Positions 10,358-56,080 of a stretch of 64,000 nucleotides of DNA are shown here, piece by piece. The stretch is from Torymus aiolomorphi (taxonomy: Eukaryota > Arthropoda > Insecta > Hymenoptera > Torymidae): contig CM070877.1 in the NCBI GenBank assembly GCA_036365515.1, positions 85,534,522 through 85,598,521 of the forward strand. The letters are read 5' to 3'. Made by a program: the position numbers and the translations under genes. Numbering within the stretch: position 1 is the first letter of the stretch; each line of letters starts with the position of its first letter. The notes beneath the pieces were generated by a model that saw only the letters and a program-made list of their open reading frames with translations, was not told where the DNA came from and did not search any database.

Positions 10358-10586
10358 TGTTACGTGACAACTTTTTGGCTTTACCTTTTTCTTTAATTGG
10401 TTAAAATTATAATGAGTACAATGATTTTCATTGGAACATATATTTTCCCCGCAGTAAAATTTTAAAATTTGTATACGCGATCCTAGTTAAGAGCTTATCG
10501 CCCAAAGCTGCAACAAGTTGCGTCCACGCAGCACTCTCCCCTCATAGCCGAAAATCGCATTCCTACACGCGCCGAGTAATAAGACA

Positions 10587-10638
10587 CCCCTTAGCGGCGA
10601 TAAGCGTCGCACAGCGGTGCGACATTGTCGTCAAGGGG
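10587..10638 (+). promoter_or_regulatory. U3/R structured inverted repeat
   Basis: CCCCTT (10587-10592) pairs with AAGGGG (10633-10638), enclosing a perfect hairpin GTCGCAC-AGCG-GTGCGAC (10606-10623). The same structure occurs in the 3' LTR near 24838-24889. Function unknown; could be a protein-binding site in U3 or an RNA element if transcribed. Confidence 0.5.
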
Positions 10639-11050
10639 CATATGGTGCGTGGGTGCGAGAGAGAAAGCGAGGACAATTAGGGGGCAAGGCGACGGGCAGC
10701 TCGACGATGCCACGCCAACTCGGCAGTGAGAAATTAGCAGCCTTCACGCTTAGACTAAGCGAAGTCTACGAGAACCAGTTACATATATACGTTGAAAGAG
10801 TCGCAGTGGCCAAAATTATTTTTTTACAGTTTTCTTTTTATTCGCACATGTTTCTACATTATTAAAAAACCCGGATCATCAGTTTTGTTTTAAAAATTCC
10901 ACCATAGTATAACGCATTATAATACGGCGAACATTACTACACGCAAATACAAATCGCACGCAGATCCTACCGAACTCGGACTATCAACGATAATAATCAA
11001 ATAATTTGCAACCACAGTAGAGAACCAGCACTAGAGTGATTCACCATTTA

Positions 11051-11064
11051 CACAAAGTAAGTTG
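11051..11064 (+). promoter_or_regulatory. Candidate major 5' splice donor
   Basis: CAAA|GTAAGTTG, donor GT at 11057-11058, upstream of the LTR poly(A) signal. It has the consensus GTAAGT and could supply the leader for the spliced downstream ORFs. An alternative donor, ATG|GTAACC, overlaps the gag start at 13993-14001. Confidence 0.45.
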
Positions 11065-11179
11065 CCTTTCGTATCATATTACTGTTTCCTTAAGGTATAG
11101 ACTTCTCCGAACAAAATTGTGAACTAGCGCGCGGTAGAGATTTGTGTATGTGTGTAGGCCGCGAGTGTTACCCTTGCCG

Positions 11180-11198
11180 CAATAAAAGGGTTTTATTG
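11180..11198 (+). terminator. Poly(A) signal sequestered in a hairpin
   Basis: AATAAA (11181-11186) lies inside a perfect 8-bp stem CAATAAAA-GGG-TTTTATTG. The 3' LTR copy (about 25433-25452) has one extra A. A poly(A) hairpin in R is a known retroviral way to damp premature 5'-LTR polyadenylation; the functional reading here is inference. Confidence 0.6.
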
Positions 11199-12234
11199 AG
11201 GAATCCCGAGTCCTTGAAGCGAGAATAACTAACTAGTCCTCAGATCAGAGTTGTTGGTTCCTAGTTTCATCCGTCAGTTGGTTAAAGAATATAAGGCTGT
11301 TAGTTGTTCCATTCCAGGGCTCGTACCAGCTACCAAAGGCGATTCATTGCACTCGGTAGTGCTATTCGACAGGAGAAGCACCTCCACCAGATCACTTTTT
11401 GTAGTAGAAGCTCCTTCGAGTAGGTCGCTGGGGAGCTTGTGACGGAGCCCTCTCTACGTCTCCTTTTTTTCTTTTCCCTTTTCCTCTTCTCTAGTTGTAC
11501 CCCTAGAATCAATAGAATAATAAATAAACAAATAAGACTTAGGATCATCCACCCGGCATAAGTGCAAAAATTTCCCTTTTCCTTTTTTTTTTTTCACTTT
11601 TCTTTTACTTTTTATTATTATATATTTTTTTTACTTTTTATTATTTATATTATTATAAAGTTCATCATAAATATCGATATCTCGCTTATCAATATACTAC
11701 CTTGTATGTACGTCAAATAAACCTCAGCTCTAAGTCGCATAGAAAAATAGTCATTACATGCATATACCATCAGTGAGAGGTATACCATGCATGTACTCAT
11801 AAGTGCGTAGGTACTCGTGAACTGATGTTAGCCGCTTGTACCCATACAATTAATATCCAGCTTTTCTTTTTTTGACTCACCCCCCTGCAATAAGCAGGGA
11901 ATTGCGGTCTTGCTCCCTGTAGTAGTGGACGAAGGCCAGGTGACATCCTCAACTGTCCTGCTTCCCCTTGTACCTTCTCTTTCCTCGCCCTATAGGAGTT
12001 CAGATTCTTCGACAAGAGTCGAAGCTTGAAGGAGTGTCAGTCAACCCTTCGCCTTTCCTTAATCGACACCTAGCATCATCCCTCCGCAGATACTGGTGAG
12101 TGTAGCACGACAGCGGAGCACATGGGAACATCATAGCAACGCAGCCTGATCCGATGGAGCCACACAGGTCTTAAACACACAGTGCAGTGAAGCATCAAGT
12201 AGATTAGAATCTAGATGCATATATCCACACTCAC

Positions 12235-12273
<39 letters not shown>

Positions 12274-13492
12274 ACAGCAGTACGCCTCACTATGCATACC
12301 CATATGTAGGCGCATAAATACAAATACACTACAGCTGAAGCAATACACTGGGTGGAAGGAGTCCTCTGGCCTTGACCCGCACCTTCAGATTTCCTCTCTG
12401 CTGTAACTAGAAGAAATCAAAGGAAAAACAACATCACACAGAGTACTCAGTCCTTCTGGTTGGGATTTTCAACTAATAAATAACCATCAAAAAGGAGGCA
12501 CTTAACTGACATCGGAGATATCTTCGCCGCAGGGATCCACTCAGCCAGGTATGGAATATCTTGCGGTTTTCCACCTCCTTTCCGTTCCCTCGGACAACAC
12601 CCTCCTCGTGCCACCCGGGTGTCCAGCGTCGTCGTTCGGCTGCCGCGGGGAGCGAGACGGCTGTTCTGCTGCTTTTGCCTGCGACTATAGCTACAGAGAA
12701 GGCCGCGCGCCACCCGCGACACATGCGACTCTACAACGGTGCTGCGCCGCCTCTCCGACATCAAGGTGCGTTCACATAGGGACATAGTATTAGGGTCGCG
12801 CTTGGTCTAATTTATAGTAGTTAACGTTTAGACAGTCTAGTTCATACTTCACGCCACGAGACAGGCTCTTATATATCCACGCTTACACAAATAAGTAATA
12901 ACGGGTATCATCACACTTCGTGATTCTCTACTGCGGTGTCCCCAATAGGGGGGGTTAACGTATCATCATTTCTGCAACGGGGCTTTAGTGTATTTCAGAA
13001 GACGGATCCCGGGATATAATCATTAGTTAAGTATACTCTCCGCGCTCCCGCGTTTTCTCGAACCTTAAGGCGCGTTTACATAGGCGTAAGACGGGAATTG
13101 CCGAACTCCTTTAAGGAATTAGGGTTTAGTTTTAGTTATCATTTTTGGATTGTATAAATGATTATAATAAAGGGATAAGAACTTGAAATAATTTCACAGG
13201 TCTATTAATTTTTATTGTTCAGTCGAGTAGCCCTACAATCATACCCTAATCCTTCTAATCTTCGGAATTTTGTTGGACGCAATCGTTTCACTGAACTATC
13301 CCCTATATCGCACGCTTGTGGGGGCGTGTGACGAATAAGCTGAGAACGAGAGGTCCTCGTGAGAGCAAGGCGGACGGATGCCTTGTGAACGTCATCCAAT
13401 CAGAAACTCACTTTGACGCAGGTAGCAGAACAAGAAGTTAGTAGGTCAAAGGAAGTGTTACGATATGAGATCCGTTTATATCGTAACAAAAA

Positions 13493-13508
13493 TGGTAGCA
13501 GAGCGTGG
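13493..13508 (+). other. Primer-binding site, initiator Met tRNA
   Basis: TGGTAGCAGAGC starts 4 nt after the 5' LTR. It complements the 3' end of initiator methionine tRNA including CCA (tRNA 3' ...GCTCTGCTACCA), giving a 12-nt match. Confidence 0.85.
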
Positions 13509-13930: not shown

Positions 13931-13993
13931 ATGGCAGGGGGTGACGATACTACAACCGCGGGGGGGGTACGAGCGCCGAATGTTCTCAACTAA
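13931..13993 (+). CDS. 20-codon upstream ORF overlapping the gag start (TAATG)
   Basis: ATGG start and a TAA stop that shares its last base with the gag ATG at 13993. Contains a run of eight G. It may be a real uORF permitting reinitiation, or the true gag N-terminus displaced by a run-length error. Confidence 0.4.
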   Translation: MAGGDDTTTAGGVRAPNVLN

Positions 13994-15282
13994 TGGTAAC
14001 CATGGCAGGAACAATGGCGATGCAAGCCGCCGTTTCTGGCATCCCATCATTTGACGGATCGAATCTGCCCCTCAAGGATTTCCTACAAGACGTGCGGAAT
14101 GCTGCAACCGATGTGCCTGCGGAGAAGATCGGTGGGTTTCTTAAAAAGGTGTTAGGAAAATTAAGGGGTTCTGCTAGGAACTCTACGTATGGAGTGACCT
14201 TCAATAGTGTAGACGACCTTGTGAAGCATCTCAAGCGGAGATTCGCACCCGGGAAGACCTTTACGTATTATAACGCTCAAATAAATGGAATCCGGATGTT
14301 ACAACAGGAAACGGTCGGCGATTTTCGGGACCGCCTCAACATCCTGTTGATGGGGGCTGAAAACGCGCTGAGAGAGGAAAAGGGCGCGGCATACGTAGAC
14401 GCCATGATGGCACCTATGAAAGACGCTTCCATAGACATCTTTATTCGAGGACTGCCATACACCATCAGCGCCGCTGTGGACGCCTGCCATCCGAAAACTC
14501 TTGATGAAGCCTACCTAGAGGGAGTGCGGATCGAATCTCGAATCAAATCCCGAATACTCTCGGACTCGCGCATGCCAGGCGCCTCTCAATACAACGAAGC
14601 CCACGAGGTATCACAGAATTTTCGACGATCCGGAAATTATGCGGCGCCGTTCCAGAATCATCACGCGGAGGGAGTACACAAGGCCCCTGCTTACATTGGA
14701 TACATGGAAAATGGTGATGCTGCTCAGCTGCCGGAGTGCCCGACCATCCAACCTCAGGAGGAGCTGGAAAACCCCTATGTCGGATACTTCTACACGGGGC
14801 CGGCAGAACCATCGCCCAATGGAGGCGCTCCCGGTGGCGATCGACCCCCCTTCGCGCAATACAATCGAGGTAGAGGGGGATATCGAGGTCGAGGTCGAGG
14901 TTACCCGCAAGGAACCCCTCGACCTAAAGAACCAATAGACCCTAGGTTGTACTACCCAAACAATCAACAAACTCAGTCGGGTTTTACCCTTGGCCTTCCT
15001 CCATCCCATGGCCCACCGACCTCATACCCTTCGCCGCAGGCGTCTTTAAACTCCCAGAGGGCTCGCCCGGAACTTTCGGAGGCGAGCCCTGTTCACTCAG
15101 CACCGACCGTTCAGCCGATGGCTCGCGAGCAACCGCCGGTAAGTCAACTCACCCCGCAAGCCAGTCAAACCAGCCCGACGCCACGGGTGTTTCTAGCAAG
15201 AGCCCCGATGACACAGCCGTCCGGATTGGTTCCTGTTCATCAGTTGGCCGAGAGGATGCGAGAGAGGATGAGCCTACAGTAG
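13993..15282 (+). CDS. gag: Gag polyprotein (Ty3/gypsy-type capsid, RGG-rich C-terminus)
   Basis: 429 residues, intact. Residues about 15-190 match the retrotransposon Gag capsid fold: FDGSNLPLKDFLQDV near the start, then the conserved helices including LVKHLKRRFAPGKTF and a QETVGDFRDRL region. There is no CCHC zinc knuckle; nucleic-acid binding is probably supplied by the basic RGG box RGRGGYRGRGRG (about residues 293-305). The last 80 residues are Pro/Ser/Gln-rich and overlap pol in the -1 frame. Start: 13993 (ATGGTAACCATGG), or the in-frame ATG at 14002 with better context. Confidence 0.9.
   Translation: MVTMAGTMAMQAAVSGIPSFDGSNLPLKDFLQDVRNAATDVPAEKIGGFLKKVLGKLRGSARNSTYGVTFNSVDDLVKHLKRRFAPGKTFTYYNAQINGIRMLQQETVGDFRDRLNILLMGAENALREEKGAAYVDAMMAPMKDASIDIFIRGLPYTISAAVDACHPKTLDEAYLEGVRIESRIKSRILSDSRMPGASQYNEAHEVSQNFRRSGNYAAPFQNHHAEGVHKAPAYIGYMENGDAAQLPECPTIQPQEELENPYVGYFYTGPAEPSPNGGAPGGDRPPFAQYNRGRGGYRGRGRGYPQGTPRPKEPIDPRLYYPNNQQTQSGFTLGLPPSHGPPTSYPSPQASLNSQRARPELSEASPVHSAPTVQPMAREQPPVSQLTPQASQTSPTPRVFLARAPMTQPSGLVPVHQLAERMRERMSLQ
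15045..15089 (+). promoter_or_regulatory. -1 ribosomal frameshift signal between gag and pol
   Basis: Heptamer TTTAAAC at 15045-15051, phased T_TTA_AAC in the gag frame (TTA is codon 352). A 7-nt spacer (15052-15058) precedes a perfect 9-bp stem GGGCTCGCC/GGCGAGCCC (15059-15067 with 15081-15089, 13-nt loop). After a -1 shift the frame stays open into pol. Slippery sequence, phase, spacer and stem fit the classical eukaryotic -1 frameshift rule. Confidence 0.85.
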
Positions 15283-17800
15283 TACGCGTAAGGGTTCCCG
15301 AGGGTCGCAAGGACGGACTCTTATTTATGGTTGACAACGGTGCCACCGTCAACCTAGTTAAGGTTGGAGCCTTGGATCCCAACGCACTGGTGGACACGAA
15401 CCAAGCCATCCCTTTGATCGGTATTAGCGATCAAACGGTAGAAACCTTAGGCACTGTCTCCCTTACCATCCGGGAGAAGCCTGTCACGTTTTTAGTCACT
15501 TACGATGACTTTCCTATCGATCAAGACGGGGTCCTAGGTAGAAATTACCTTAAGCAAGAAAAGGCTGTCATCTCGTACCATTATAATACGTTGATGATTG
15601 GGAGCGACGTCATGCACCCAATTCCTTTCATCGATCCGCCCGCCGCGCCCAAACCAATAAATATTTGCGACACCGCCACCTGCAAGCAACCAGAGGGCGA
15701 GGAGGCAGACTCCACCGTTCCACGCCCTGAAACGACTAGCAATAAAAACCTACAGGGACCGCCTACTGACTCGCCCCACAAACCTGCCCCCATTCGGTAC
15801 ACTATCCCCCGCCGGTCGCGCAGGGTGCTTAAAATTAACCTCGCCAGGACGGATTTGAAGGAAGGTTACCTACCTCTTCTGGACGTCGGGTACGACGACG
15901 TCTACGTGGGAGAAGGAATTGTAAGGGTGGAAAACAACAGCTGCCATGTGATGGCCATCAACACTCGTGAGGACGATGTCACCATCGAAGTACAACCGGG
16001 AGAACTCATTCCTTTCGAATACGCAGCTATGGACTTCGAACCAGGATCGGAGGATGATATCGAGGTCGCAGCCAACAACCCCATCATGGAAAGCTCCAAA
16101 AGGATGCAAGAACTTAAAACGATTATCCCCACCGATCATCTGAACGATCAAGAAAAGGCCTATGTAGATAAATTGATCCACGATTACACTAATGTTTTCC
16201 TATTACCAGGAGATCCCTTGCCATGTACGGACGCTGTGGAACATTTTATCCCTACGGATACCAACAAGCCTGTTACTGCAAAACAATATCGACATCCCGT
16301 GGCACACAAGGAATTCATACAAAGAGACATCGAAAAGAAACTTAAGGAGGGAATCATCGAGCCTTCCAATAGCCCTAGCAGCTCCCCGATATGGATCGTC
16401 CCTAAGAGGCCGGACCCACAAGGGAAGCCTAGATGGCGCATGGTCGTGGATTTTCGAGAATTAAATCAACGCACTGTTGGAGACGCATACCCCCTCCCGA
16501 ACATAGCCGAGCTTCTAGATCAATTGGGAGGCGCCGTGTATTTTTCGGTGTTCGATTTAGCTTCCGGTTTTCATCAAATTCAAATGGCTCCAGAGGACAA
16601 ATGGAAAACCGCGTTCTCCACGCCGGAAGGACACTATGAATTCAATCGTATGCCAATGGGACTCAAAAACGCCCCGGCTACATTCCAAAGACTAATGGAT
16701 CAAATTAAGCGCGGGATCGATTGTAAAGAGCTGCTGGTGTACATGGATGACGTAATCATCCACGCTAAAACCCTCGAAGAACATGACCGCCGAGTAAGGA
16801 AGTTCTTCGACCGGTTAACAGAAACCAAGCTCGTCCTACAACCTGAAAAGGTGCACTTTCTGGGCAAGGAAGTAGCCTTTTTAGGGCATATTGTCAGCGC
16901 CAAGGGCGTTGAACCGGATCCAGGAAAAATTCATGCTGTAAAGAATTTCCCTCGACCCAAGACGGTACGGAATGTGAGAGAGTTCACTGGGCTCACCGGG
17001 TACTATCGCCGGTTTATCAAGGATTACTCCAAGATCGCTAAGCCACTGTACGAACTCCAGAAAAAGGATAAAGACTTCCTGTGGGGTCCCGATCAGGAGG
17101 AAGCGTTCGAAATCTTGAAGGACAAATTGTGTAACTATCCAATTCTGGCGTTCCCTGATTTTAATAAACCTTTCACTCTGACAACTGACGCATCTGATGG
17201 AGCCATAGGAGCCGTACTAAGTCAAGAGAGGGACAAATTTGATCACCCCATAAATTACCTATCGAGGACCTGAATAAAGCCGAACGCAACTATAGTACTA
17301 CCGAAAAGGAATGCCTAGCCGTCCTATATGCTCTCAGCCAGTTCAGAGCCTACTTGTTAGGCCGTAAGTTTACCTTAGTAGCCGATCACGAGCCCCTTAA
17401 TTGGATGCACAGTCGGAAGGATCCGGGACAAAGACTCATGCGTTGGATGTTCAAATTCACCGGGTACGAGTACACATTCAAGTACAAACCCGGAAAATTG
17501 AACTGCAACGCCGACGCGTTATCCAGGAACCCCGCAGATCAACCTGACGAAGACGAGATTAACACAAAGCTCCCGCGGCTGAAGATCATGGTTCTGAAGG
17601 ATCGAAAGGACGCAGGCAAGCCCACGGGAAACGGGGGTGATAGACCCCTTACACCGACGCCCGCCCTTGGTGCAGCCGGTCCGTCCGGGACTCAATCGCT
17701 GGCGTCTCGCTCAAAGGCCGTGTTTAACCCCGTCCGAGGTAGAGGGCGCCCCTTGGGTACTCTAAAGAAAAGACCGCGCCTGTGTTGGAACACAGCGTGA
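15045..17800 (+). CDS. pol: Pol, first half: protease, reverse transcriptase, RNase H (frame break near 17270)
   Basis: Gypsy-type Pol in the -1 frame relative to gag. Protease active site is DNGAT (about 15330), with Asn in place of the usual Ser/Thr. RT: VDFRELNQRT (about 16447), MPMGLKNAPATFQR (about 16650), YMDD (about 16740), then FLGHIVSAKGV and GLTGYYRRFIK. RNase H starts LTTDASDGAIGAVLSQ (about 17180). The frame changes at about 17270, and RNase H continues in a second frame through KECLAVLYAL, VADHEPLNW and NADALSRNP (about 17515) to a stop at 17800. The order PR-RT-RH is standard. The break lies beside a CC pair in otherwise perfect sequence. Confidence 0.9.
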
Positions 17801-20399
17801 TAGCCCAGCGGACACGGCTGAGGAAAAGAATAGGTTCTGCAGGGAACAAGGATTCAGACAAACGATCGCCTGCCCCTCCCTCGCAATCGTCGACACCGAA
17901 AGGACTTCCGGCCCCATCACAGGAGGGTAGTTGTCGCCCTGTGGATGTCTCTATAGGACCCCAGTTTAGCCGGCACTCATCGATCATTTCCTCCTCAGGA
18001 GGGGGGAATCCGGCGAAATCGACGAACCAAAAACCCCGATCTATGATCCTCGAAGAAGCGGGATCAGGCTTAACGACGAGAAAGGAGAGGAACCAAGAGA
18101 AACCACCAATGAATTATCCGAAACGGACGCCACTGCGGATACTTCTGCACCAGTCGACGAGCAGGTGGAGATCCAAGCTACAGCACCAGAACAGAGCGCC
18201 TCTGAAGTGGATGACGATCTCTCTCCCGGACAAGTCACCATCAGTCCTGAGGAAGTCGCGGAATCTGCCCGCAAGTTTGAGGAGAGCCTCCGAATTCTGG
18301 CGGAGAAAACGAGAACAGAGGAAGAGGGCGATGAGATCCCTCCTCTCGAGCTCCCGTCCCACTTATCCGAAGGGGACGTTGTTGACGATCACACACGCAG
18401 CGTATTGGACCAGTTGGATCTATATGATGGGCAGAACGACGATGCTCTATCCCAAAGGATCACTGAATTGGTGCAACGGGCCGCGGCCGCGACCGAACCC
18501 GAATCGGCTACTTCCTCGAACCCAGACACAGCCCCAGAAAAACCCAACCGAGAGCGCGACGGTTCTATGATCAGCCAACCCGTGCAGCGCGCCATATCGG
18601 TAACTCCCCAAGTAAGAGCAGGCCTTCCAACGGCCAGAAGCACTCCCAACCCCCCTGGGAGTTTTAAACCTATTCCCCGTTTCCCTCAGCTGGATATCCG
18701 AGAAGAAGCGGAGGGGTCTAAACCCGTACACTTAGAATTCCCTCAACCGCCGATCGACACCTTGGGATTGTTCATGTCTATGCTCGGGCAATACCAGCCT
18801 CTGAACCAATACGTCGATCCGGACTGCAGCAACGGAAGGAAATTGCCACCCTCCGAAGGCCCTAGCGAATCAGAGGAGCAACGACCAGCCATACCACTAC
18901 CTCTTAAGAACAACGTCATTATCTCACGGCAGTGTCTCACTTATAAGAGAGACAATTACGCCCACTTTTTGGCCAAGGATTGCGAAACAAATAACCCCGT
19001 TGCTCGCTTATTGTCTGACATCGGGGCTCTAGACCTCAAGAATCTCAAATCAAAAAAGGCCAAACTGGGGCAAATTATTACTACTCCTTATAAGAACCAT
19101 AATATCTTCTCTCTCGTAATCAAAGAGAGATATTATGACCCTATTGACATAAAATGTTTAAAACGCAGTTTGAAGAACCTACGAGACCTCTTGTTGAAGA
19201 AAAACCTACCCAGCATCAGGATATCCCGGAGAGGAGACTTCACCGACACCTTAGACCCTGGACTCCTCACCGAGACCCTCGTGGAGATTTTCAGCGGAAC
19301 ACCGATTAAAGTCGTGATGTGTTACGGAAAGGTGGAGTTGCCTGACAAGGAAGAACGACAGCGGATCATCGAAACCTTGCACGACAGCCTGGTAGGAGGA
19401 CACAAGGGTATCAACCAAACGTACCAGAAGATCCGAGAGCGATATTATTGGCCGGGGATGCGCAATGATGTTCTAGATCACGTACGTCGGTGCCCAAGTT
19501 GTCAAGAAAGGAAAATAGAACGGATCAAAACGCGAGAACCTATGATCATCACCGACACCCCGATCGAAGCCTTCGACAAAATCTCCATTGACACCGTGGG
19601 GAAACTCAGGATCACTCCGCGCGGGAATTGCCACATCTTAACTATCCAGTGTAATCTCACTAAATATCTGATCGCAATACCCCTGCCAAATATCAAGGCC
19701 CTAACCATCGCGGACACTCTAGCCAAACATCTCATCTGCAAATTCGGCGCCCCCCGAGCTATATTGTCCGATAGAGGAACCAGTTTCCTCTCCGAAATTT
19801 TTGACAGCCTAATGAGGATCTTCAAAATACATCACCTCACTACATCGGGGTACCACCCTCAGACTAATGGATCGCTGGAGCGTAGTCACGCCCCTTTGGT
19901 CGACTTTATTCGAACGTATTCCGAAAAGTACGACGACTGGGACAACCTCGCACCGTTTGCCACGTTCACCTACAATACTAGTGTACACTCAGCAACAAAT
20001 TTTACCCCGTTCGAGCTCGTTTTTGGCAAACTGGCTAGGTTCCCTATGCGCATACCTAACGACGAGAAGTTGCGCACTTACAATGTGTATCTGCAGGACC
20101 TTGTGACCAGGTTGGGTGAACTGAAGCGGGTAGCGGGTGAGACGCAGATCGCGAACAAAATACGGAGCAAGGATCGGTATGATCTCAAAATTAAAAACCT
20201 TAAGGGAAAGATCGGTGATTACGTGTGGGTATTAAAGGAACCCCGTACCTCAAAATTCGACAGTTTTTATAATAAGCCACTGAAAATCGTAGAAATTCTC
20301 GGACGAAACAACGTGATCCTCGAACTCCCAAATGGGAAGAGAATTCGGAAACACACGGATAAATTAAAAGTCGTCCCCCCTACTGACTCCTCTGACTAA
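17801..20399 (+). CDS. pol: Pol, second half: long linker, macro-like module, integrase
   Basis: Between RNase H and integrase lies an unusually long linker of over 500 codons. It is Pro/Ser-rich, then strongly acidic, with two frame changes near 17775 and in a G6 run near 18003; from 18165 to 20399 it is open. The linker ends in the macro-like module. Integrase follows: zinc-binding HDSLVGGHKG and CPSC (about 19380-19500), catalytic D in ISIDTVGK (about 19588), D in LSDRGTSF (about 19769) and E in GSLERSH (about 19880), with 35 residues between the last two (D,D35E). The C-terminus has a GPY/F-like barrel, IGDYVWVLKE to HTDKLKV. Confidence 0.88.
18908..19330 (+). other. Macrodomain-like module inside Pol
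   Basis: About 140 residues just before the integrase zinc domain: NVIISRQCLTY, YAHFLAKDCETNNPVARLL, QIITTPYKNHNIFSLVIKER, a helix LKRSLKNLRDLLL, SIRISRRGDF..TLD and EIFSGTPIKVVMCYG. Element order and spacing fit a TARG1/OARD1-type macrodomain, which binds ADP-ribose. The usual GCG-containing ligand loop before the LD is replaced, so hydrolase activity is doubtful. Assignment is from pattern memory only. Confidence 0.45.
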
Positions 20400-20404
20400 T
20401 CACC

Positions 20405-20419
20405 TTGCATGAATTTCAG
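20405..20419 (+). promoter_or_regulatory. 3' splice acceptor for env
   Basis: TTGCATGAATTTCAG, cut after 20419, 30 nt upstream of the env ATG at 20450 and 20 nt after the pol stop. Confidence 0.55.
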
Positions 20420-20449
20420 GTAGTACGCTTTTGCGCTTTTTCCCTCACT

Positions 20450-22393
20450 ATGCACCTACTGCTTGCTGCAATCCTCTTCCTAGGGGTGGGGACTTTGGCC
20501 ATTGCGGACCCTTATTACGATGTCACCCCGATTCGAACCAATCCCGGGATCTATTATGAACGGACCCGAGCCGTGCGGATACGAAAAAACGACTGGAAGA
20601 TCGTTATCTATCTGGACATACCGGCCTTCATCAATACCCACCGACCCTCTAACAGTTACGCAGCCAACCTCAAGAGGTGCGAAGCATATTTTCCCGCATA
20701 GATGTCATACCATCCTCAGCAAAGAACTAATGGACGTAAAACACCAAACGCTCCTGAACTTGCATGACGAGATTCGGATCCTAGCGGAAAGCATGAACGT
20801 CAGGGAACCTAACACGCCCCCCTCTTAGAGACATGCGATTCAGGAGGATGGCCCCTTTAGGAATAATCGGAAGTATGAGCAAAGGACTATTCGGACTCGT
20901 CACGGAGGAGGACGCGGACTTGATCAACAAAAACATCGACCAACTCTTCCAGGATCAAACCAAACTTGCGAAACTCACCGAGGACAAAACACACATCTTA
21001 GCGGCAGGGCTGGAAGAGCTTTATAACATGACAGCATCTCATCAAGCCCTAGTAAAAGCAATGGAAGTCCAGATGCGAGACAAGGTGAATAACCTCACTA
21101 GAGATTTCGAGAAGAACCAGTTCTTATGGGAACTAAACGCGTTCGCACGACAAACCGAGGCCAAGATGGACCATCTCATTTATTGCAACCGAGAATTGTT
21201 AGCCATCCTTAACAACCTGATGGAACGAAGAATACATCCCCGGCTGTTAAGGAGGGACACTATTCAGAGTATCGCGAGCGATATTCGGCAATTAGACGAC
21301 AATCTGGATCTCCCAATCCCTACTCAACACATCCGAGCCGAGGAAATCGCTCGAATTGCCTCCATAGATGCTATATACCACTCAGGGAGGGTTCTGGCAA
21401 GGTTAAGCCTCCCGCTCACGGATAGGACTTCTTATGATTTATACAGACTACACCCCGTCGCCATACCTCAAAACGTTCCGGGGCATCCTCTAGGGTCCGC
21501 CTGTATCGTCCCCGAATATGAGTATATGATTCTTAGCAAAGATCAAAGGACCTACCTCAAGATCCATCAACATCAGCTGAAGGACTGCCTCGACTCTCAC
21601 TATGGGTACATGTGCCCCACTCAAGGAGCCGTCTACACCGCCGGGGGCATAAGGAATGCGAGATCGAAATGTTAACTAATCCCACGAAGGCATCCCTCTC
21701 CTTGTGCAACATCGTCATGAGACCGGAAACCACGACGCAATGGCGCTATCTAGAAACCGACGGCACCTGGTTATTTTCCACCATCGAGACTGAGACCATA
21801 CAGGTCTCGTGTCCAGGGGAAGTCTACAAAAATGTTAACCTCCAGGGGTGGGGATACTAAGACTGGCCGAGGGATGCATGGGACGTACTCCGCACCTGAC
21901 CTTAATTCCTAATAGCGTCAGGACCTCCAGGACCCAATATATATACGACCCAGATTTTGGACTGAACGTGACGGACCTCCTACCGAATTTTCAGTTACGG
22001 GACAATTCCTCCACCAGCGAGGCAACACTAACCCAAGAAGCCTTAAGTCATCTACCGTCTTGGGGCGACAGAAAGGAATCATTGAGAAGCATCATGGCAC
22101 AACTCCAAGAAGTTGGCCGACACAAGCGGGCTACTTCCTTCACCAACAACTTGATCTATAGCGGGCTGGGAGTCCAGGGAGTTTTCATAATCTGCGCCGT
22201 TTTGTACCTCGTCGCACGAATTTTTCCCTTCAAGCGGAACCGGCGCTCCACGTCCAAACCTATTATCCGGGGTATGACATCGAGATGCAGGGATCCGGAA
22301 CGGGACAACGTTCCGCAGAAAACCTTAAGAGCCCCGTCCCAATATCCATCTCCTCATGTCCCATCACAACCATCGACACCGAATAAATACTAA
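20450..22393 (+). pseudogene. env: Env-like glycoprotein gene (errantivirus/baculovirus-F-like), broken into five frames
   Basis: Starts ATG 20450 with a signal peptide (LLLAAILFLGVGTLAIADP). About residue 130 there is a basic cleavage-like RFRR followed by the hydrophobic GIIGSMSKGLFGL stretch (near 20860), the arrangement seen in F-type fusion proteins. Next come coiled-coil-rich sequence, Cys pairs near 21590-21710, and a C-terminal membrane segment VFIICAVLYLVARIF (about 22185-22230) with a basic cytoplasmic tail. Frame changes occur near 20693, 20820 (C6 run), 21640 (G5 run) and 21845 (G runs). As written no single frame is functional, although the pieces are collinear. Expected to act at the cell or particle surface. 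Confidence 0.78.
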
Positions 22394-22433
22394 TCATCCC
22401 GGTTCCCCTCGGTTACAGAGCACTCCATAGTGG

Positions 22434-22447
22434 ACTTTCCTCTCTAG
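22434..22447 (+). promoter_or_regulatory. 3' splice acceptor for ORF-A
   Basis: CTTTCCTCTCTAG ends at 22447; the ORF-A ATG begins at 22449. A strong polypyrimidine tract. Confidence 0.6.
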
Positions 22448-22448
22448 C

Positions 22449-23069
22449 ATGGATTCAGTTCTGAATACGGTCTTGATCCAACTACAACGGATGGAAAAAA
22501 CTATCTCCACTCGAATAAAAAACGAGGTCACCGAAACCCTCTCTGACCCTGGCAAGAACACACCCATTGTACTTGCAACCGAAGACATTGAAGAAACGTC
22601 ACGACACGGGAGCCCTGACCCGAAAATGCGATCCGAAGTCCGGAAGGTTCCGAACAAGAAAGACAACCTTAAATTCGATAAGAATCGAATATTCTGTCAG
22701 CTACCATGGGATCGACGAGTCAGGCAAGGGACAGAAAGAAATCAGGGTGAAAAGAAGATCGAACGCCGTTTCTTTTCTCATTTTGCGAAATTCGGCACCA
22801 TGGAATACTGTTATACGAGAAGGGACCATCTCGACAGGTTGTCCCATGGATTCGTGAAGTACCACCACCAGGCAGATGCTAACCATGCCCTTCGCTCGAG
22901 CGATGCACGTTACCGAGCTCGACCCGCCCTACGCCAGTACACCATCACCAATAGAATCACGGAAAGGACCCACCGAACCTGTGGATTTCCTATTGACACC
23001 AGAAACTGGGTTATGCACTTGCCCACATGCTCGCGACAGCGAGCCCTAGAACAATTACGAAAACAATAA
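22449..23069 (+). CDS. ORF-A: accessory protein with RRM and H-C-H-C zinc finger
   Basis: 206 residues, intact, ATGG start two bases after a splice acceptor. Residues 1-70 are a charged, helical N-terminus. Residues about 79-160 form an RRM: beta-1/RNP2-like IFCQLP (81-86), helix KKIERRFFSHFAKFG, RNP1-like LSHGFVKY (131-138) and helix ADANHAL (142-148), close to ELAV/Hu-type RRMs. The C-terminus has H175-x2-C178-x11-H190-x3-C194 with Trp187 at the position where C2H2 fingers carry Leu. This is an RNA-binding architecture. It is a paralogue of ORF-B. Likely role: regulation, splicing, export or packaging of element RNA (inference). I know no standard gypsy-type counterpart. Confidence 0.85.
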   Translation: MDSVLNTVLIQLQRMEKTISTRIKNEVTETLSDPGKNTPIVLATEDIEETSRHGSPDPKMRSEVRKVPNKKDNLKFDKNRIFCQLPWDRRVRQGTERNQGEKKIERRFFSHFAKFGTMEYCYTRRDHLDRLSHGFVKYHHQADANHALRSSDARYRARPALRQYTITNRITERTHRTCGFPIDTRNWVMHLPTCSRQRALEQLRKQ

Positions 23070-23160
23070 GGACTTCTGTAATAACGCTCACCATTGTCTC
23101 TATCCCATAAAAACATATATATTGCCTTGCCATTTTCTTATCTACCCCATCCCAAGCTTA

Positions 23161-23197
23161 AATAAAACCCCAATTAACTTGTCATTGTCTGTTACAG
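23161..23197 (+). promoter_or_regulatory. 3' splice acceptor for ORF-B
   Basis: TTGTCTGTTACAG ends at 23197, with the ORF-B ATG at 23200. An upstream AATAAA at 23161 would have to be ignored for ORF-B mRNA. Confidence 0.6.
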
Positions 23198-23199
23198 CC

Positions 23200-24267
23200 A
23201 TGTCTCAATCACTATCAACCCAAGAGGACAACGCGTCAGGTACAGGAGCAGCACTGGGAGGCTTACCAGTTGCCCTTCAAAGGATAGCCGAGATATGGAG
23301 GGCTCGACGCGAACCTTCTCCTTCCTGTGTCCCCACTGACGAGGAACAAACCAGCCAAGAAGATAAGGATCAGGAAATCGAGAACGCGATCGGACTACGG
23401 TTGATATCCATATACGGGAATCCGGAAGAGCCAACAACGGGGACTTTTGAGTACATGGACTGTCGATCCACTACCCTGCTAATGCAGATGTTGAGGAAAG
23501 ACGGGGCACTCCATTTCACGGGGCCGGATCAAAAAGAGAAACGCGGGCGTACCAGCTATACACTGAACGCAGAGTTCAGTAGCTTCGACGAATGTTTGAA
23601 GGCATTCCATAAATACAGCCTGTGGGCGTATGATGACGTGACGTCCGAAGAGGATCAGGACGAGGAGGACTCTGCCTCCCAAGATGATCCGAATGATCAA
23701 CCGCCCACGCAGCAAGAGGAACGCCCAGCGGAACCGAAAGAATCGCCGAGAATGCTGAAGGCCCCCGAAACGGGAGCAGAAAGGTTCGCGCGAATATTAC
23801 GGGAGCGGACCCCCAAAATGATCAGCATGAGTGAGCATGTTGCGGGGCTTAGGATCACTATCGTGATCACCCCGGTCGATGAGGAACTAGAAGTCGTCAA
23901 ACAATTCGGCAGATATGGGCGGATAGATTACTTTTTCTCCCACCCCATCGGAGACAGGGGGATCATCCAGACCTATATCAAATATTTCAACCTACAAGAC
24001 GCAGAGACAGCCCTGAACCGTGCGCCGCCAAAATATGGGGCGCACCCGACGATTCCCCCCATAATCTCTGCACGAGAGAAGGAGCGCCTAACTATTTACC
24101 ACCCGATGTGCGGGCGTGATGTGATCCGAAAGCACATCTTCAATCATCAAGCCATTTGCGATCTCCAAGCAGGATTGGAGATAATCAAACACCATGGTTG
24201 TGGATTTAGAATGACGCGGCGTAGCCTAAAAGGGCACCTCAGGATGTGTAAACGAGGGACTTACTAA
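23200..24267 (+). CDS. ORF-B: accessory protein with RRM(s), acidic linker and two H-C-H-C zinc fingers
   Basis: 355 residues from ATG 23200, chosen because the acceptor ends at 23197; the frame is open upstream to 23122. Residues about 66-140 (LRLISIYG to FDECLKAFHKY) may be a first, degenerate RRM. Residues 145-182 are an acidic linker. Residues about 217-278 are an RRM aligning with ORF-A: LRITIVIT, VVKQFGRYGRIDYFF, IIQTYIKYF, LQDAETAL, then PPKYGAHP matching ARYRARPA. Two fingers follow: H301-x2-C304-x11-H316-x3-C320 and H331-x2-C334-x11-H346-x3-C350. The spacing is identical to ORF-A's finger. Intact in an element whose pol and env are interrupted. Predicted RNA- or DNA-binding. Confidence 0.85.
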   Translation: MSQSLSTQEDNASGTGAALGGLPVALQRIAEIWRARREPSPSCVPTDEEQTSQEDKDQEIENAIGLRLISIYGNPEEPTTGTFEYMDCRSTTLLMQMLRKDGALHFTGPDQKEKRGRTSYTLNAEFSSFDECLKAFHKYSLWAYDDVTSEEDQDEEDSASQDDPNDQPPTQQEERPAEPKESPRMLKAPETGAERFARILRERTPKMISMSEHVAGLRITIVITPVDEELEVVKQFGRYGRIDYFFSHPIGDRGIIQTYIKYFNLQDAETALNRAPPKYGAHPTIPPIISAREKERLTIYHPMCGRDVIRKHIFNHQAICDLQAGLEIIKHHGCGFRMTRRSLKGHLRMCKRGTY

Positions 24268-24269
24268 GC

Positions 24270-24271
<2 letters not shown>

Positions 24272-24312
<41 letters not shown>

Positions 24313-24442
24313 GGATCCTCAATGGGTCCACAATGCACTTATACTCTACTCTTATTCCACACTAATGACGGACTTAATATTTTTGCAATAAAACAAAAAC
24401 AAAAAAACAAAAAAAAAAAAAAAAACAAAAAAAAAAAAAAAA
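24272..24442. repeat. (AT)n tract and A-rich tract before the 3' LTR
   Basis: (AT)n at about 24272-24309 and an AAAAC/A-rich run at about 24391-24440. Between and after them, up to the polypurine tract, I see no coding potential. Confidence 0.85.
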
Positions 24443-24608
24443 TTTTTCGGACTTCAAAAATATTTTTTATCTTTCTCCAAAACCAAGTAGGACTTTCCAG
24501 ACTCTCCTTCTTCTTCGAGACACGACCAGGCGCAGCGCTTCCAGTGGATCAGCATTTTTCCTATGACTCAAGTTCTCCGTGGGCGGCAAACGTTCCACAA
24601 GGGGAGGG

Positions 24609-27600
24609 TGTTACGTGACAACTTTTTGGCTTTACCTTTTTCTTTAATTGGTTAAAATTATAATGAGTACAATGATTTTCATTGGAACATATATTTTCCC
24701 CGCAGTAAAATTTTAAAATTTGTATACGCGATCCTAGTTAAGAGCTTATCGCCCAAAGCTGCAACAAGTTGCGTCCACGCAGCACTCTCCCCTCGTAGCC
24801 GAAAATCGCATTCCTACACGCGCCGAGTAATAAGACACCCCTTAGCGGCGATAAGCGTCGCACAGCGGTGCGACATTGTCGTCAAGGGGCATATGGTGCG
24901 TGGGTGCGAGAGAGAAAGCGAGGACAATTAGGGGGCAAGGCGACGGGCAGCTCGACGATGCCACGCCAACTCGGCAGTGAGAAATTAGCAGCCTTCACGC
25001 TTAGACTAAGCGAAGTCTACGAGAACCAGTTACATATATACGTTGAAAGAGTCGCAGTGGCCAAAATTATTTTTTTTTACAGTTTTCTTTTTATTCGCAC
25101 ATGTTTCTACATTATTAAAAAACCCGGATCATCAGTTTTGTTTTAAAAATTCCACCATAGTATAACGCATTATAATACGGCGAACATTACTACACGCAAA
25201 TACAAATCGCACGCAGATCCTACCGAACTCGGACTATCAACGATAATAATCAAATAATTTGCAACCACAGTAGAGAACCAGCACTAGAGTGATTCACCAT
25301 TTACACAAAGTAAGTTGCCTTTCGTATCATATTACTGTTTCCTTAAGGTATAGACTTCTCCGAACAAAATTGTGAACTAGCGCGCGGTAGAGATTTGTGT
25401 ATGTGTGTAGGCCGCGAGTGTTACCCTTGCCGCAATAAAAAGGGTTTTATTGAGGAATCCCGAGTCCTTGAAGCGAGAATAACTAACTAGTCCTCAGATC
25501 AGAGTTGTTGGTTCCTAGTTTCATCCGTCAGTTGGTTAAAGAATATAAGGCTGTTAGTTGTTCCATTCCAGGGCTCGTACCAGCTACCAAAGGCGATTCA
25601 TTGCACTCGGTAGTGCTATTCGACAGGAGAAGCACCTCCACCAGATCACTTTTTGTAGTAGAAGCTCCTTCGAGTAGGTCGCTGGGGAGCTTGTGACGGA
25701 GCCCTCTCTACGTCTCCTTTTTTTCTTTTCCTTTTCCTCTTCTCTAGTTGTACCCCTAGAATCAATAGAATAATAAATAAACAAATAAGACTTAGGATCA
25801 TCCACCCGGCATAAGTGCAAAAATTTCCCTTTTCCTTTTTTTTTTTTCACTTTTCTTTTACTTTTTATTATTATATATTTTTTTTTTTACTTTTTATTAT
25901 TTATATTATTATAAAGTTCATCATAAATATCGATATCTCGCTTATCAATATACTACCTTGTATGTACGTCAAATAAACCTCAGCTCTAAGTCGCATAGAA
26001 AAATAGTCATTACATGCATATACCATCAGTGAGAGGTATACCATGCATGTACTCATAAGTGCGTAGGTACTCGTGAACTGATGTTAGCCGCTTGTACCCA
26101 TACAATTAATATCCAGCTTTTCTTTTTTTTGACTCACCCCCCTGCAATAAGCAGGGAATTGCGGTCTTGCTCCCTGTAGTAGTGGACGAAGGCCAGGTGA
26201 CATCCTCAACTGTCCTGCTTCCCCTTGTACCTTCTCTTTCCTCGCCCTATAGGAGTTCAGATTCTTCGACAAGAGTCGAAGCTTGAAGGAGTGTCAGTCA
26301 ACCCTTCGCCTTTCCTTAATCGACACCTAGCATCATCCCCTCCGCAGATACTGGTGAGTGTAGCACGACAGCGGAGCACATGGGAACATCATAGCAACGC
26401 AGCCTGATCCGATGGAGCCACACAGGTCTTAAACACACAGTGCAGTGAAGCATCAAGTAGATTAGAATCTAGATGCATATATCCACACTCACATTATATA
26501 TATATATATATATATATATAAACACAGCAGTACGCCTCACTATGCATACCCATATGTAGGCGCATAAATACAAATACACTACAGCTGAAGCAATACACTG
26601 GGTGGAAGGAGTCCTCTGGCCTTGACCCGCACCTTCAGATTTCCTCTCTGCTGTAACTAGAAGAAATCAAAGGAAAAACAACATCACACAGAGTACTCAG
26701 TCCTTCTGGTTGGGATTTTCAACTAATAAATAACCATCAAAAAGGAGGCACTTAACTGACATCGGAGATATCTTCGCCGCAGGGATCCACTCAGCCAGGT
26801 ATGGAATATCTTGCGGTTTTCCACCTCCTTTCCGTTCCCTCGGACAACACCCTCCTCGTGCCACCCGGGTGTCCAGCGTCGTCGTTCGGCTGCCGCGGGG
26901 AGCGAGACGGCTGTTCTGCTGCTTTTGCCTGCGACTATAGCTCTACAGAGAAGGCCGCGCGCCACCCGCGACACATGCGACTCTACAACGGTGCTGCGCC
27001 GCCTCTCCGACATCAAGGTGCGTTCACATAGGGACATAGTATTAGGGTCGCGCTTGGTCTAATTTATAGTAGTTAACGTTTAGACAGTCTAGTTCATACT
27101 TCACGCCACGAGACAGGCTCTTATATATCCACGCTTACACAAATAAGTAATAACGGGTATCATCACACTTCGTGATTCTCTACTGCGGTGTCCCCAATAG
27201 GGGGGGTTAACGTATCATCATTTCTGCAACGGGGCTTTAGTGTATTTCAGAAGACGGATCCCGGGATATAATCATTAGTTAAGTATACTCTCCGCGCTCC
27301 CGCGTTTTCTCGAACCTTAAGGCGCGTTTACATAGGCGTAAGACGGGAATTGCCGAACTCCTTTGAGGAATTAGGGTTTAGTTTTAGTTATCATTTTTGG
27401 ATTGTATAAATGATTATAATAAAGGGATAAGAACTTGAAATAATTTCACAGGTCTATTAATTTTTATTGTTCAGTCGAGTAGCCCTACAATCATACCCTA
27501 ATCCTTCTAATCTTCGGAATTTTGTTGGACGCAATCGTTTCACTGAACTATCCCCTATATCGCACGCTTGTGGGGGCGTGTGACGAATAAGCTGAGAACG

Positions 27601-27740
27601 AGAGGTCCTCGTGAGAGCAAGGCGGACGGATGCCTTGTGAACGTCATCCAATCAGAAACTCACTTTGACGCAGGTAGCAGAACAAGAAGTTAGTAGGTCA
27701 AAGGAAGTGTTACGATATGAGATCCGTTTATATCGTAACA
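24609..27740 (+). repeat. 3' LTR, 3132 bp
   Basis: Near-identical to the 5' LTR. Differences seen by eye include A10544/G24795, AAGGAATT versus GAGGAATT near 13113/27365, an inserted CT near 26942, a shorter (AT)n tract and several single-base run-length changes. Preceded by the polypurine tract at 24599-24608. Confidence 0.95.
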
Positions 27741-27745
27741 ATAAA

Positions 27746-28760
27746 ATTTTAAATTAAAATTTGAATTCCCTCTCTCAGTCACAGTTTTCTAAATTAATCA
27801 CCTGCAAAGCAAAAGTTTATTACATACACCCCTGGTGAAAAAAAATCACGTGATTGATCATATGATTTATCACTTGAACAATACACACATAAAAAATATT
27901 ATATAATGCTAATTTGTTAATGAAACTTGTTTCCTTAACGAATATCAATTACATTATAGCAGAAAAAAAGATAAAAAATATTTGCTACCTAACCGAGAAT
28001 CGAACTCGCGAACTTTGAGTTACTGCGCACGCACGCTATCCATTACGCTGTCACTCGCTTGAAAGACTTAGGTGATTTTCACCTACATAAGCTGCATCCT
28101 CCATATTTATTACTATTTAAGATTGATTATATATCTAAAATATCAAAGATATTTAATAATTATGTATTTATACACTATTTTAATAAAATAAGTAACTTAC
28201 GTTAAAAAATTAATTAATTAAAATCGAATAACTTAAAAATGCAGTGTCGGTAAAGTAGAAATCAGATCAGTTCAAAAGTCATTTTCTTATTACATAAACA
28301 AAATACCGAATTATTTTTGTAAAATGTTATGTATATAAAATTGTAAATAATGATCATAACATTTTTAAAAATTTTCATTAGTTTCGAAAAAGTTATTCTA
28401 ATTTTATTAATTGATGTTCTAATGTAAGTTATTCATTTTCTTTAAATAGTGTAAAAATAAATAATTATTAGAAATCTTTGATATTTTTGATAAAAATCGT
28501 TCATCATGTTTATTTAATTGCTGTTCAATTTTTATTATTCAATTTGCTATTTAGTTTTGATTATTTTGAAAATAAATAATTTATATTGGGATATTAAACA
28601 ATTAAATTTGAATAACATTTTTTAATGTTTAATAATATAAGTTTAATAATTATTAGAAATCTTTGATATTTTTGATAAAAATCGTTCATCATGTTTATTT
28701 AATTGCTGTTCAATTTTTATTATTCAATTTGCTATTTAGTTTTGATTATTTCATAATAAT
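27746..28760. repeat. AT-rich repeat family with tRNA-Arg-like head and internal direct repeat
   Basis: On the minus strand 28060-27989 is tRNA-like: GCGTAATGGATAGCGTG (box A region, tRNA-Arg-like) and GAGTTCGATTCTC (box B region), so it is probably a SINE head. A copy of about 106 bp at 28463-28570 recurs almost exactly at 28649-28755 (TTAGAAATCTTTGATATTTT onward). The AT-rich body at 28290-28620 is related to 49060-49340. CACGTGAT-type palindromes lie near 27846. No gene. Confidence 0.7.
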
Positions 28761-28954: not shown

Positions 28955-31900
28955 TTGTTAATTGTAGCTAGTGGCCAAAATTACTACCAAAGTTTGTCGT
29001 GAGAAGGTGGCAAATAACAACAATAGTTTTTTAACGACGTTTCGGACATCCTTTATTGATTATGTCCCTCTTCAGGCAGCTAGTAACAAAGTACAAAATA
29101 CAACTTTTAACAACAACGTATATTAACTTAATTATGAACACATAATTTTACAAGTAACAATTAACACTTACAAAGTCTGTATTTTTTCCTGAGTATTACG
29201 GAGAACTATCCGTTCGTCAATGTAACGAGCATCACAAAATTTTCCTACTTATACCTATCATTAGTGTATTAGTGTGAGTGTAAGTAAGAACGCAACATGT
29301 ACTGGCTTAATTGTGTAGAGCTTTTTGGGTGTGTACACACAAGATACGACCTTCCATAACCTACTCTCCTGATATCTATTCCACTATTGTATGTGATATT
29401 TTTTGATACTAGGAAGGAGATAGAAATTCAAAATTATTAATCATAGTGTTATATTCTTTTGGAAGTTTATTAATTTCAAATTGCTTGTTCATAAATTTCT
29501 TTTGTGTGTGTACATATAATGCTTCGGAAAATAGTCTTTTTTCTTTATTTCTTTCATGATCTAATATATTAACAGTGTTGAAATTTATATTATGATTATT
29601 TTCTATCCTATGTATGTGTAGTGACGAATTTTCATCTTCTTCCATGTATTTTTTATGGTGTTCTTTGATTCTCACACCTAAGCGCCGACAAGTTTGGCCA
29701 ACATAGGACGCATTACAATGATTACAATTGATTTTATACACAACGTTAGACTTTTCTAATTTTACATTCTTGTCTTTTCCTAGTACTATAATATTGTTCA
29801 TTTTGTTTTGTGTACTAAATATAACATTAGTATTTAATCGTTTAAAAAAGTTCTTTGTAAAACCTTCGATTTCTTTCACATATGGTAGACAAATGAAATT
29901 CTTGTTCTCATTATTTGAATTTTGTTGAGTACTTCTTGTGCAATAGATCTTCTTTAATCGTTTTTTTATATAAAACTCGATAAAATCAAGAAGATAATCA
30001 TTTTTTGTTAAAACTTTCTTGATAAAGGCAATATTATTTCTATGGAAAGAACTATGTAATAACTTTATGGCTCGATCGATAAGGCAATAAATTATGGCTA
30101 TTTTGTTGCTAATCGGATGATGTGAATTGAAGTTCAAATATCTACCTGAGAAAGTCGGTTTTCTGTACCAATCTGTTATAATTTTCTTTTGTTCAGTAAT
30201 AATAATCTTAACATCTAGAAAACTAATACTATTATTCTGTACTTTTTCGATTGTAAATTGAAGATTTTTATCGCAATTATTGAAAATGCGTAATGTTTCA
30301 TCTATGTGGTTTTGTGTATACATAATAATACATCATCAACATATCGAAAATAAAATAACGGTTTTGAGATTAAAAGGTTTATACAATGCGACTCTAGGTC
30401 TTCCATGACAATGTCTGATAAAACTGGACTGATAGGATTGCCCATTGCTGATCCGAAAATTTGTTTGTAAAATTTTTGGTTGGATTGAAAATAATTATTA
30501 TTTAAGATAAACTTAATAACCTTACAAAATTCCGACAAATTTAAATTTGTCTTGTGTACTTGATGCCATCTTTTTTCTATTGCTTTTAGTACTAAATATT
30601 CTGGCACATTTGTGAATAAACTCACAACATCAAAACTGACAAGTTTTTTTTAGTTTTGAGCTGTTATCGATATGTGACCTAGGTATTTTTATGTTTTTTT
30701 GTAGGAAATTGGCAAAAAATTTTGATAATTCATATGTAGGTGAGTTTATAGTTGAAATAATCGGTCTTACCGGGAAGTCAGTTTTATGAATTTTAACTAA
30801 TCCATAAGCTTTAGAAATGTTAAATTTGTTTACAACAGGTTCTAGTTTTTTGCCTGCAGCCGAAAAGTCAATTTTATTTAACCACTTAATTAATTCATTT
30901 GTTTCTCTTTCTAATTTGGGTAACGGATTAGATTTTATTTTTTGATAGTATTTTATATCTGCAAACAAACTATTAAGTTTTTGGTTATAAGTGGCTTTAT
31001 TTATGATGACAGTAGTATTTCCTTTGTCGGCTCTGGTGATTAAGATATCACAATTGTTTTTTATAAATTGTTTTGTTTTTTGTAAGTCCATTTTTAATCT
31101 ATTGTCAAAATATGAATGTGTAGACAAATCCTTATTATAAACTCTTTTGATAGTATTTAAAAACGTTCCTATTATTTTTGGAATATCAGGAGGTATCGGA
31201 TACCTTTTCGCAAAAACTTCAAAGTTTTTTACATAAGTTGTTGCTAGCTTATTGTCAAATTTATTGTTAAAATTAAACTTTTCGCCAAGTTTTAAAGTAT
31301 CGTTGACATATTTTGGGAGTTCAACGTCCGTAAGATTAACACACCATTTGTCATCTTCCTTGATAGAATCATCGAGGTCAATCACCTGTGTGTTATTATT
31401 TCGGGTGTTGAACTCTGTATTTCCCAACAGATTGGCACTGTATCTATCTTTTTCCAAAACATGCTTATATTTTTGAAAGTAAATCCTGTGGAGTTTATTT
31501 TCAAGGTTTGTCTTTAATTTTTCTGTACTAAACTTTAGTTTTGTGTTATAATAATCCATAAATAACGTGATTAAATCTACTCCAACTAGTTTTTCTAAAT
31601 GTGAAAACGCTTTTTTGACTTTTTTTTCTGATAGTTAATTTTTGTATGCAAATCCATAATTTCTATATTCAATAATCGTGACATTGTGTGGTTTATAATT
31701 TTTTGTTGTTTTAACTTTCCGGTATTTGAAAACATCTGATTGTTTTTTATGTTTTTTGTGATAAAATTAAGGTGATTAGGAACAATATGATAATACCGGC
31801 ATTTAGTTAAAAATTTGCATTGTTCTTTTGAATATATGTTGTTGAACATCAATTTAGTCACACGGTAAAATTTCTTTTTTGTGTCAAAACCAAAAATTTG

Positions 31901-45144: not shown

Positions 45145-45177
45145 CGCCTCAGCCAGAGCGGTATTGCCTTATTTTAT

Positions 45178-54740: not shown

Positions 54741-54752
54741 GTACCGACATTA

Positions 54753-56075: not shown

Positions 56076-56080
56076 AGCGA

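Follow-up and report, generated by a model that had tools for sequence, protein, structure and literature searches.

Regulatory accessory genes are usually taken as a mark of the complex vertebrate retroviruses, among which HIV and HTLV produce the RNA-binding regulators Rev and Rex from spliced mRNAs. Both proteins have arginine-rich motifs and lack RRMs and zinc fingers, and they can be compared with the genes described below by analogy only. The errantivirus-like elements of insects, which are env-bearing Ty3/Gypsy elements, consist of LTRs, gag, pol (RT and RNase H, then integrase) and a Baculo_F-type env. In bdelloid rotifers, LTR elements have captured genes other than env downstream of pol as extra ORF3s, which in the available sections code for esterase, exonuclease or membrane proteins (PMC5408684); the terms "RRM" and "zinc" are absent from the main text of that paper. 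The Caenorhabditis elegans LTR element Cer1 produces CERV, a nuclear protein translated from a spliced mRNA and needed for export of the unspliced genomic RNA, for which the available sections report a possible zinc finger, no recognized RNA-binding motif and no obvious homology outside nematodes (PMC10309623). In type I LINEs, the available account of ORF1 places an RRM directly upstream of zinc knuckles in an RNA-handling module (PMC4120745). The first-pass annotation started from Gypsy-type elements normally carrying gag, pol and at most env; extra genes in LTR elements do have precedents (PMC5408684, PMC10309623).

We analyzed a window of 64 kb (the whole stretch of DNA, from Torymus aiolomorphi) containing an LTR retroelement on the plus strand, on which all of its features lie. 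Both ends of the element are in place (10358-27740), and the gene order is gag, pol, Baculo_F-type env, ORF-A, ORF-B. It shares the LTRs, gag, pol order and env type of the errantivirus-like elements and differs from them by two further genes after env and by LTRs of approximately 3.1 kb, which is longer than usual for LTR elements. Accessory proteins of an LTR element that are as isolated as CERV is by description link ORF-A and ORF-B to Cer1, from which they differ in that CERV shares exons with gag and is one protein rather than 2 paralogues (PMC10309623, in part). They share with the type I LINE ORF1 the succession of an RRM and zinc fingers, whereas the LINE protein is the product of a first ORF and has CCHC knuckles, as far as it is described in the sections available, and the genes analyzed here belong to an LTR element, follow env, and encode H-x2-C-x11-H-x3-C fingers (PMC4120745). 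The rotifer elements, as partly covered here, have unrelated kinds of proteins in the ORF3 position, in contrast to 2 paralogues after env (PMC5408684). Both kinds of precedent are already known, namely LTR elements with additional genes and retroelement modules that join an RRM to fingers. Among the titles and abstract beginnings listed by full-text searches of an open-access library, several of them giving only the best 15-20 of more papers (for example, 15 of 1,829), none describes an LTR element with RRM genes or the present combination, and a paper on oomycete and plant retrotransposons contains, in the part available, one mention of an "RRM domain" (PMC5348765).

The anatomy of the element could be read directly from the computations. 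The 5' LTR (10358..13488) and the 3' LTR (24609..27740) are each approximately 3.13 kb long with the ends TGTTACG...CGTAACA, and each is flanked on its outer side by one copy of ATAAA (10353-10357 and 27741-27745), forming a 5-bp target-site duplication. The 2 LTRs are 99.3% identical (BLAST) and differ by 2 substitutions and 8 indel places. Because they differ at so few places the insertion is young, and since the indels fall mostly within short runs some of them may be sequencing or copying slips. Directly behind the 5' LTR lies TGGTAGCAGAG (13493..13503), a candidate primer-binding site that we take to be complementary to the 3' end of the initiator tRNA-Met, and a polypurine-rich stretch, CAAGGGGAGGG (24598..24608), adjoins the 3' LTR. 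An Rfam scan of positions 10000-28000 gave no match at the gathering scores.

The gag gene (13993..15282) encodes 429 amino acids with a weak match to Ty3_capsid (E 0.093). The CCHC zinc knuckle pattern is absent from this protein, whose sole cysteines are at positions 165 and 249; by eye, it has an Arg/Gly-rich stretch with the potential to bind RNA. The pol gene (15327..20399) encodes RT, RNase H and integrase, with Pfam domains in the order RVT_1, RT_RNaseH_2, and then Integrase_H2C2 and rve, and on the simplest interpretation it is broken into four frame segments. The env gene (20450..22393) is broken into at least four frame segments and encodes a Baculo_F-type fusion protein (E 3.8e-10, 39.4 bits against a Pfam cut-off of 24.1) in which a signal peptide and a C-terminal hydrophobic segment are recognizable by eye. 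The paired LTRs, the ATAAA copies on both sides, the RVT_1, RNase H and integrase domains and the Baculo_F match bear out the earlier description of the locus as an env-containing LTR element, and we classify it as a young env-bearing Ty3/Gypsy-type retroelement of an insect. When the RT part of pol was compared with the protein database, 1385 of the 7979 scored candidates were relatives, the best of them 84% identical. The best named relative was from Trichogramma kaykai (approximately 50% identity), and the named relatives among the best 120 matches were mostly from Hymenoptera, which by itself makes a hymenopteran host probable.

A second copy of the element was not found in the 64-kb window by tblastn with ORF-A, ORF-B, gag, RT, integrase and env pieces. 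The window holds several other mobile-element remains. Copia-type fragments occupy 54000-59330 (RVT_2, E 8.2e-57; by eye, there is also a CCHC-like stretch and a part resembling an integrase), and a Mariner-type transposase (Transposase_1, HTH_48) at 59466-60458 contains a nearly perfect 54-bp tandem duplication at 59758-59866. Judged by the look of their ORFs, 2 Penelope-like elements are present (29409-31634, minus strand, and 62024-63826, plus strand), with RVT_1 in 62024-63319 and only a sub-threshold DUF123 match in 29409-30323. A non-LTR-type RT fragment lies on the minus strand at 43343-45168 (RVT_1, E 7.5e-22, in 44143-45168) and by eye is followed downstream by an RNase H-like part, and Mutator-like transposase pieces (PF20700, E 5.6e-54, and one sub-threshold match) and a DDE_1 piece (E 1.3e-18) are found at 36556-40438 (plus strand) and 33457-34149 (minus strand). 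The region 1256-2947 (minus strand) looks by eye like a Polinton-type DNA polymerase B, and positions 1895-2944 matched no Pfam family at E up to 0.01. At 7073-7885 (plus strand), an ORF of 270 amino acids has tandem 24-base repeats and, by eye, a Cys-rich C-terminal end, and it likewise matched no Pfam family at this threshold.

ORF-A (22449..23069; 206 amino acids, pI 10.1) and ORF-B (23200..24267; 355 amino acids, pI 5.7) have exactly the coordinates and lengths given for them previously. In ORF-A an RRM lies within residues 75-165 and is followed by a single finger (H175-C178-H190-C194), the pI of these pieces being 10.4 and 11.3, respectively. An N-terminal helix appears in its predicted model with low confidence. 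In ORF-B an acidic N-terminal part and an acidic linker precede an RRM-like part within residues 205-295, which is followed by 2 fingers (301-320 and 331-350) in a basic region (pI 10.1). Both ORFs had been described as having an RRM core. For ORF-A this holds, since the protein scores above the gathering cut-off of Pfam RRM_1 (22.5 bits against 20.7, and 24.5 bits with the RRM piece alone), and its RRM piece gave 31 PDB matches at E up to 1, of which 28 were RRM-type by name and 3 were V-type ATPase subunits (best match HuC, E 0.0048). ORF-B alone remains below the cut-off, with a weak match to an RRM family (Nup35_RRM_2, E 0.11, 12.8 bits against 27), its RRM piece matches nothing in the PDB at E up to 1, and it qualifies only as homologous to the RRM of ORF-A. 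A joint profile of both proteins had 37 PDB matches at E up to 1, all of them RRM-type as judged by name; 15 were hnRNP A1 and 3 had an E below 0.01, the best being RBM45 (5.4e-4). Adding ORF-B to the profile improved the matches to RBM45 (from 0.1 to 5.4e-4) and HuD (from 0.008 to 0.0026) and worsened that to HuC (from 0.0048 to 0.013). Since this gain is modest and mixed, the RRM assignment of ORF-B relies mainly on its alignment with ORF-A.

That alignment extends over approximately 100 residues across the RRM and the finger with 24% identity (BLASTP E 2e-7). In shuffle tests the C-terminal parts of the 2 proteins reached a z of 11.9 and the RRM parts alone a z of 9.2, and 0 of 2000 shuffles were as good. 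Judged from these comparisons, ORF-A and ORF-B are distant paralogues across the RRM and the finger, in agreement with what was first proposed. Nucleotide-level similarity between the 2 genes did not exceed chance. Because of this, and of a protein identity of only about 24%, a dN/dS ratio between them would be saturated. The RNP1-like stretch of ORF-B looks degenerate by eye, and together with the absence of PDB matches for ORF-B alone this indicates that ORF-B may lack RNA binding. Structures predicted without an alignment had low confidence (mean pLDDT 39.7 for ORF-A and 43.2 for ORF-B), and for the low-confidence ORF-B model Foldseek returned nothing at E up to 0.001. Loose matches to export-signal patterns occurred once in ORF-A and 6 times, overlapping, in ORF-B, and each protein has one short basic cluster.

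The N-terminal part of ORF-B (residues 63-144; window positions 23386-23631) models, again with low confidence, as a ferredoxin-like fold with possible domain bounds at residues 66-139. VIA-align comparisons of residues 63-144 gave Z values of at most 7.0, matching a general ferredoxin-like arrangement, and RRM entries made up 2 of the 50 rows listed, both of them MEC-8. That this part is a second paralogue of the RRM found no support at the sequence level (shuffle z of -0.2 and 0.2). On the strength of the model, it may be a further nucleic-acid-binding or dimerization domain.

The H-x2-C-x11-H-x3-C motif occurs at residues 175-194 of ORF-A and at residues 301-320 and 331-350 of ORF-B, confirming the earlier count of one finger in A and 2 in B. 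Shuffling almost never yields it: in 50,000 composition shuffles it appeared at least once in 1 for ORF-A and in 2 for ORF-B, and at least twice in ORF-B in 0. When the 3 fingers of this single element copy were aligned, 5 of the 26 columns were invariant, corresponding to the four ligands and one Gly, and the probability that five randomly placed invariant columns include all four ligands is 3e-4. The finger of ORF-A is 19% and 35% identical to the 2 fingers of ORF-B and aligns with the finger part of ORF-B with a z of 5.9 (0 of 2000 shuffles as good), and the 2 ORF-B fingers align with each other with a z of 4.2 (7 of 2000 shuffles as good).

The first-pass annotation had likened this finger to that of TFIIIA with the outer ligands swapped, a comparison that was not supported; the nearest weak matches are TRAF-type. 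The ORF-B finger pair matched zf-TRAF_2 (E 2.4e-4, 22 bits) and zf-TRAF (E 0.069, 14.3 bits), both missing the cut-offs of 27 bits each. In the PDB its sole match at E up to 10 was F-box only protein 30 (E 0.25, not significant), and a profile of the fingers had FLN29 as its best match (E 1.2, not significant), followed by elastases (1.4-1.6). The ORF-A finger piece alone matched no Pfam family. Classical C2H2 (TFIIIA) fingers have ligand pairs of the C-x2-4-C and H-x3-5-H types; we rejected this class, as the pairs found are H-x2-C and H-x3-C and no C2H2 family was matched. The CCHC knuckle of retroviruses and LINEs, with the pattern C-x2-C-x4-H-x4-C, was likewise rejected, neither ORF-A nor ORF-B having a Cys pair three residues apart. 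From its sequence the finger looks TRAF-like with His as the first ligand, yet it falls below the thresholds of both the TRAF and the C2H2 families. We infer that the fingers bind zinc.

ORF-A and ORF-B had also been singled out for being intact, in contrast to an interrupted pol and env. The contrast itself is real, since pol and env are spread over several frames, with three frame changes in pol by the simplest reading and at least three in env. As a sign of selection it says little, because ORF-A and ORF-B, with 1.69 kb together, would stay open by chance with a probability of 0.18-0.29 at the density of these changes (6-7 per 7.0-8.3 kb), and the indel places between the LTRs hint at sequencing or copying slips. 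Among 2000 Markov sequences, an ORF of 355 amino acids was reached in 0 and one of 206 amino acids in 61, indicating that the length of ORF-B is beyond chance and that the length of ORF-A alone is within it. Codon usage favors the right register in both genes and cannot tell the strands apart, because the score is about as high for that register on the opposite strand.

To analyze how the genes downstream of pol could be expressed, each of the 680 AGs in the internal region was scored as a splice acceptor using general splice-site frequencies as weights, not fitted to the host. An acceptor-like AG of rank 7 ends at 20419, 30 bases before the env ATG; AGs of rank 20 and 25 end at 22447 and 22418, 1 and 30 bases before the ORF-A ATG; and an AG of rank 5 ends at 23197, 2 bases before the ORF-B ATG. 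With a cut-off at the top 25 AGs, which was picked after the ranks were seen, or with the top 20, only 2 of the 160 ATGs of the internal region have such an AG within 3 bases, namely those of ORF-A and ORF-B, compared with 0.9% (top 25) or 0.7% (top 20) of positions. With the top 7 AGs alone, the ATG of ORF-B is the sole one with an AG at this distance. Within 30 bases, 10 of the 160 ATGs have a top-25 AG, those of env, ORF-A and ORF-B included. Most of the 25 best AGs (21) lie elsewhere than before these three genes, and ranks 1-4 and 6 are inside pol or env. The best putative donor-like sites, again by such general weights, are 2 of 574 and lie at 15139 in gag and at 12096 in the 5' LTR. The acceptor-like AGs before env, ORF-A and ORF-B suggest that each of these genes is expressed from a separately spliced mRNA. 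They also strengthen the analogy with retroviral accessory genes that had been drawn from the position of ORF-A and ORF-B after env.

Homologues of ORF-A and ORF-B were not found. Among approximately 5.8 billion proteins, 79 candidates shared words with ORF-A and 1644 with ORF-B, and none was a relative at E up to 1; searches of viral contigs with ORF-A, ORF-B, RT, the integrase part and an RT alignment gave no match, and genome contigs contained no relative of ORF-B. Searching the genome contigs with the RT alignment yielded 5 loci with 35-44% identity, all in metagenome-assembled microbial records on contigs under 7 kb, and these loci were left out of the analysis. The protein database includes elements with a related RT, the five closest of them on contigs of 3.5-7.8 kb, and the absence of ORF-A and ORF-B relatives is weak evidence because these contigs need not reach the corresponding genes.

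Altogether, we interpret ORF-A and ORF-B as probable diverged paralogous accessory genes that would encode proteins with an RRM and TRAF-like zinc fingers. Each would most likely be translated from its own subgenomic mRNA, in which an upstream donor is joined to an acceptor 1-30 bases from the ATG, as we propose for env too. The proteins would then most likely bind the RNA of the element itself and control its fate, above all whether the unspliced genomic RNA is exported from the nucleus or spliced. We infer RNA binding and a regulatory role from domain content, and we put the chance that the 2 proteins are regulators of the element's own RNA at about even.

A first alternative, which we consider unlikely, is that ORF-A and ORF-B counter the defense of the host by binding piRNA precursors or silencing factors, similar to viral suppressors of RNA silencing, rather than the element's own RNA. 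TRAF-like fingers are often protein-binding, and fast divergence, as reflected in the lack of detectable homologues, would suit an arms race. That env-bearing elements are under silencing pressure is indicated by somatic piRNA data, ovarian somatic piRNAs against gypsy elements being mainly antisense and enriched in the insects studied, according to the sections available (PMC13172572). Nevertheless, no sequence feature of the 2 proteins points to a silencing factor, and binding to the element's own RNA accounts at least equally well for an RRM with a basic finger. We regard as similarly improbable that the proteins, in the manner of LINE ORF1 proteins, act in trans as nucleocapsid or packaging factors and take no part in export or splicing. 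The missing zinc knuckle of gag and the domain order shared with type I LINE ORF1 in the available account (PMC4120745) fit such a function, but it would be odd for a structural protein to be made from a spliced accessory mRNA, and the Arg/Gly-rich stretch of gag could itself bind RNA. Moreover, Gypsy-type gag proteins lacking a knuckle are known to function without helper proteins of this kind. It is very unlikely that ORF-A and ORF-B are pieces of host genes captured in one copy and of no role for the element, because, although they are known here from a single copy and lack homologues in a protein database in which relatives of the RT are present, each has its own ATG, stop and acceptor-like sequence, the pair is accommodated between env and the polypurine stretch, and the 2 genes show an old homology in which the ligands are conserved, and a recent capture should resemble a host gene, of which none was found.

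Regulation of the element's own RNA by ORF-A and ORF-B thus remains our preferred reading. A wider and more tentative one, to which we give clearly less than an even chance, is that the element represents an insect complex retrovirus, that is, an env-bearing Gypsy-type lineage that has independently evolved a duplicated pair of regulators with an RRM and a His-first TRAF-like finger, which would be made from spliced mRNAs and would govern how the element's genome is exported or spliced. If true, the His-first finger, whose ligands have persisted in three diverged copies, would constitute a new variant among zinc fingers, and the plan of the complex retroviruses would have had an independent origin in a Gypsy-type element of insects. 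It would also make testable how env-bearing insect elements export their unspliced RNA and escape piRNA silencing.
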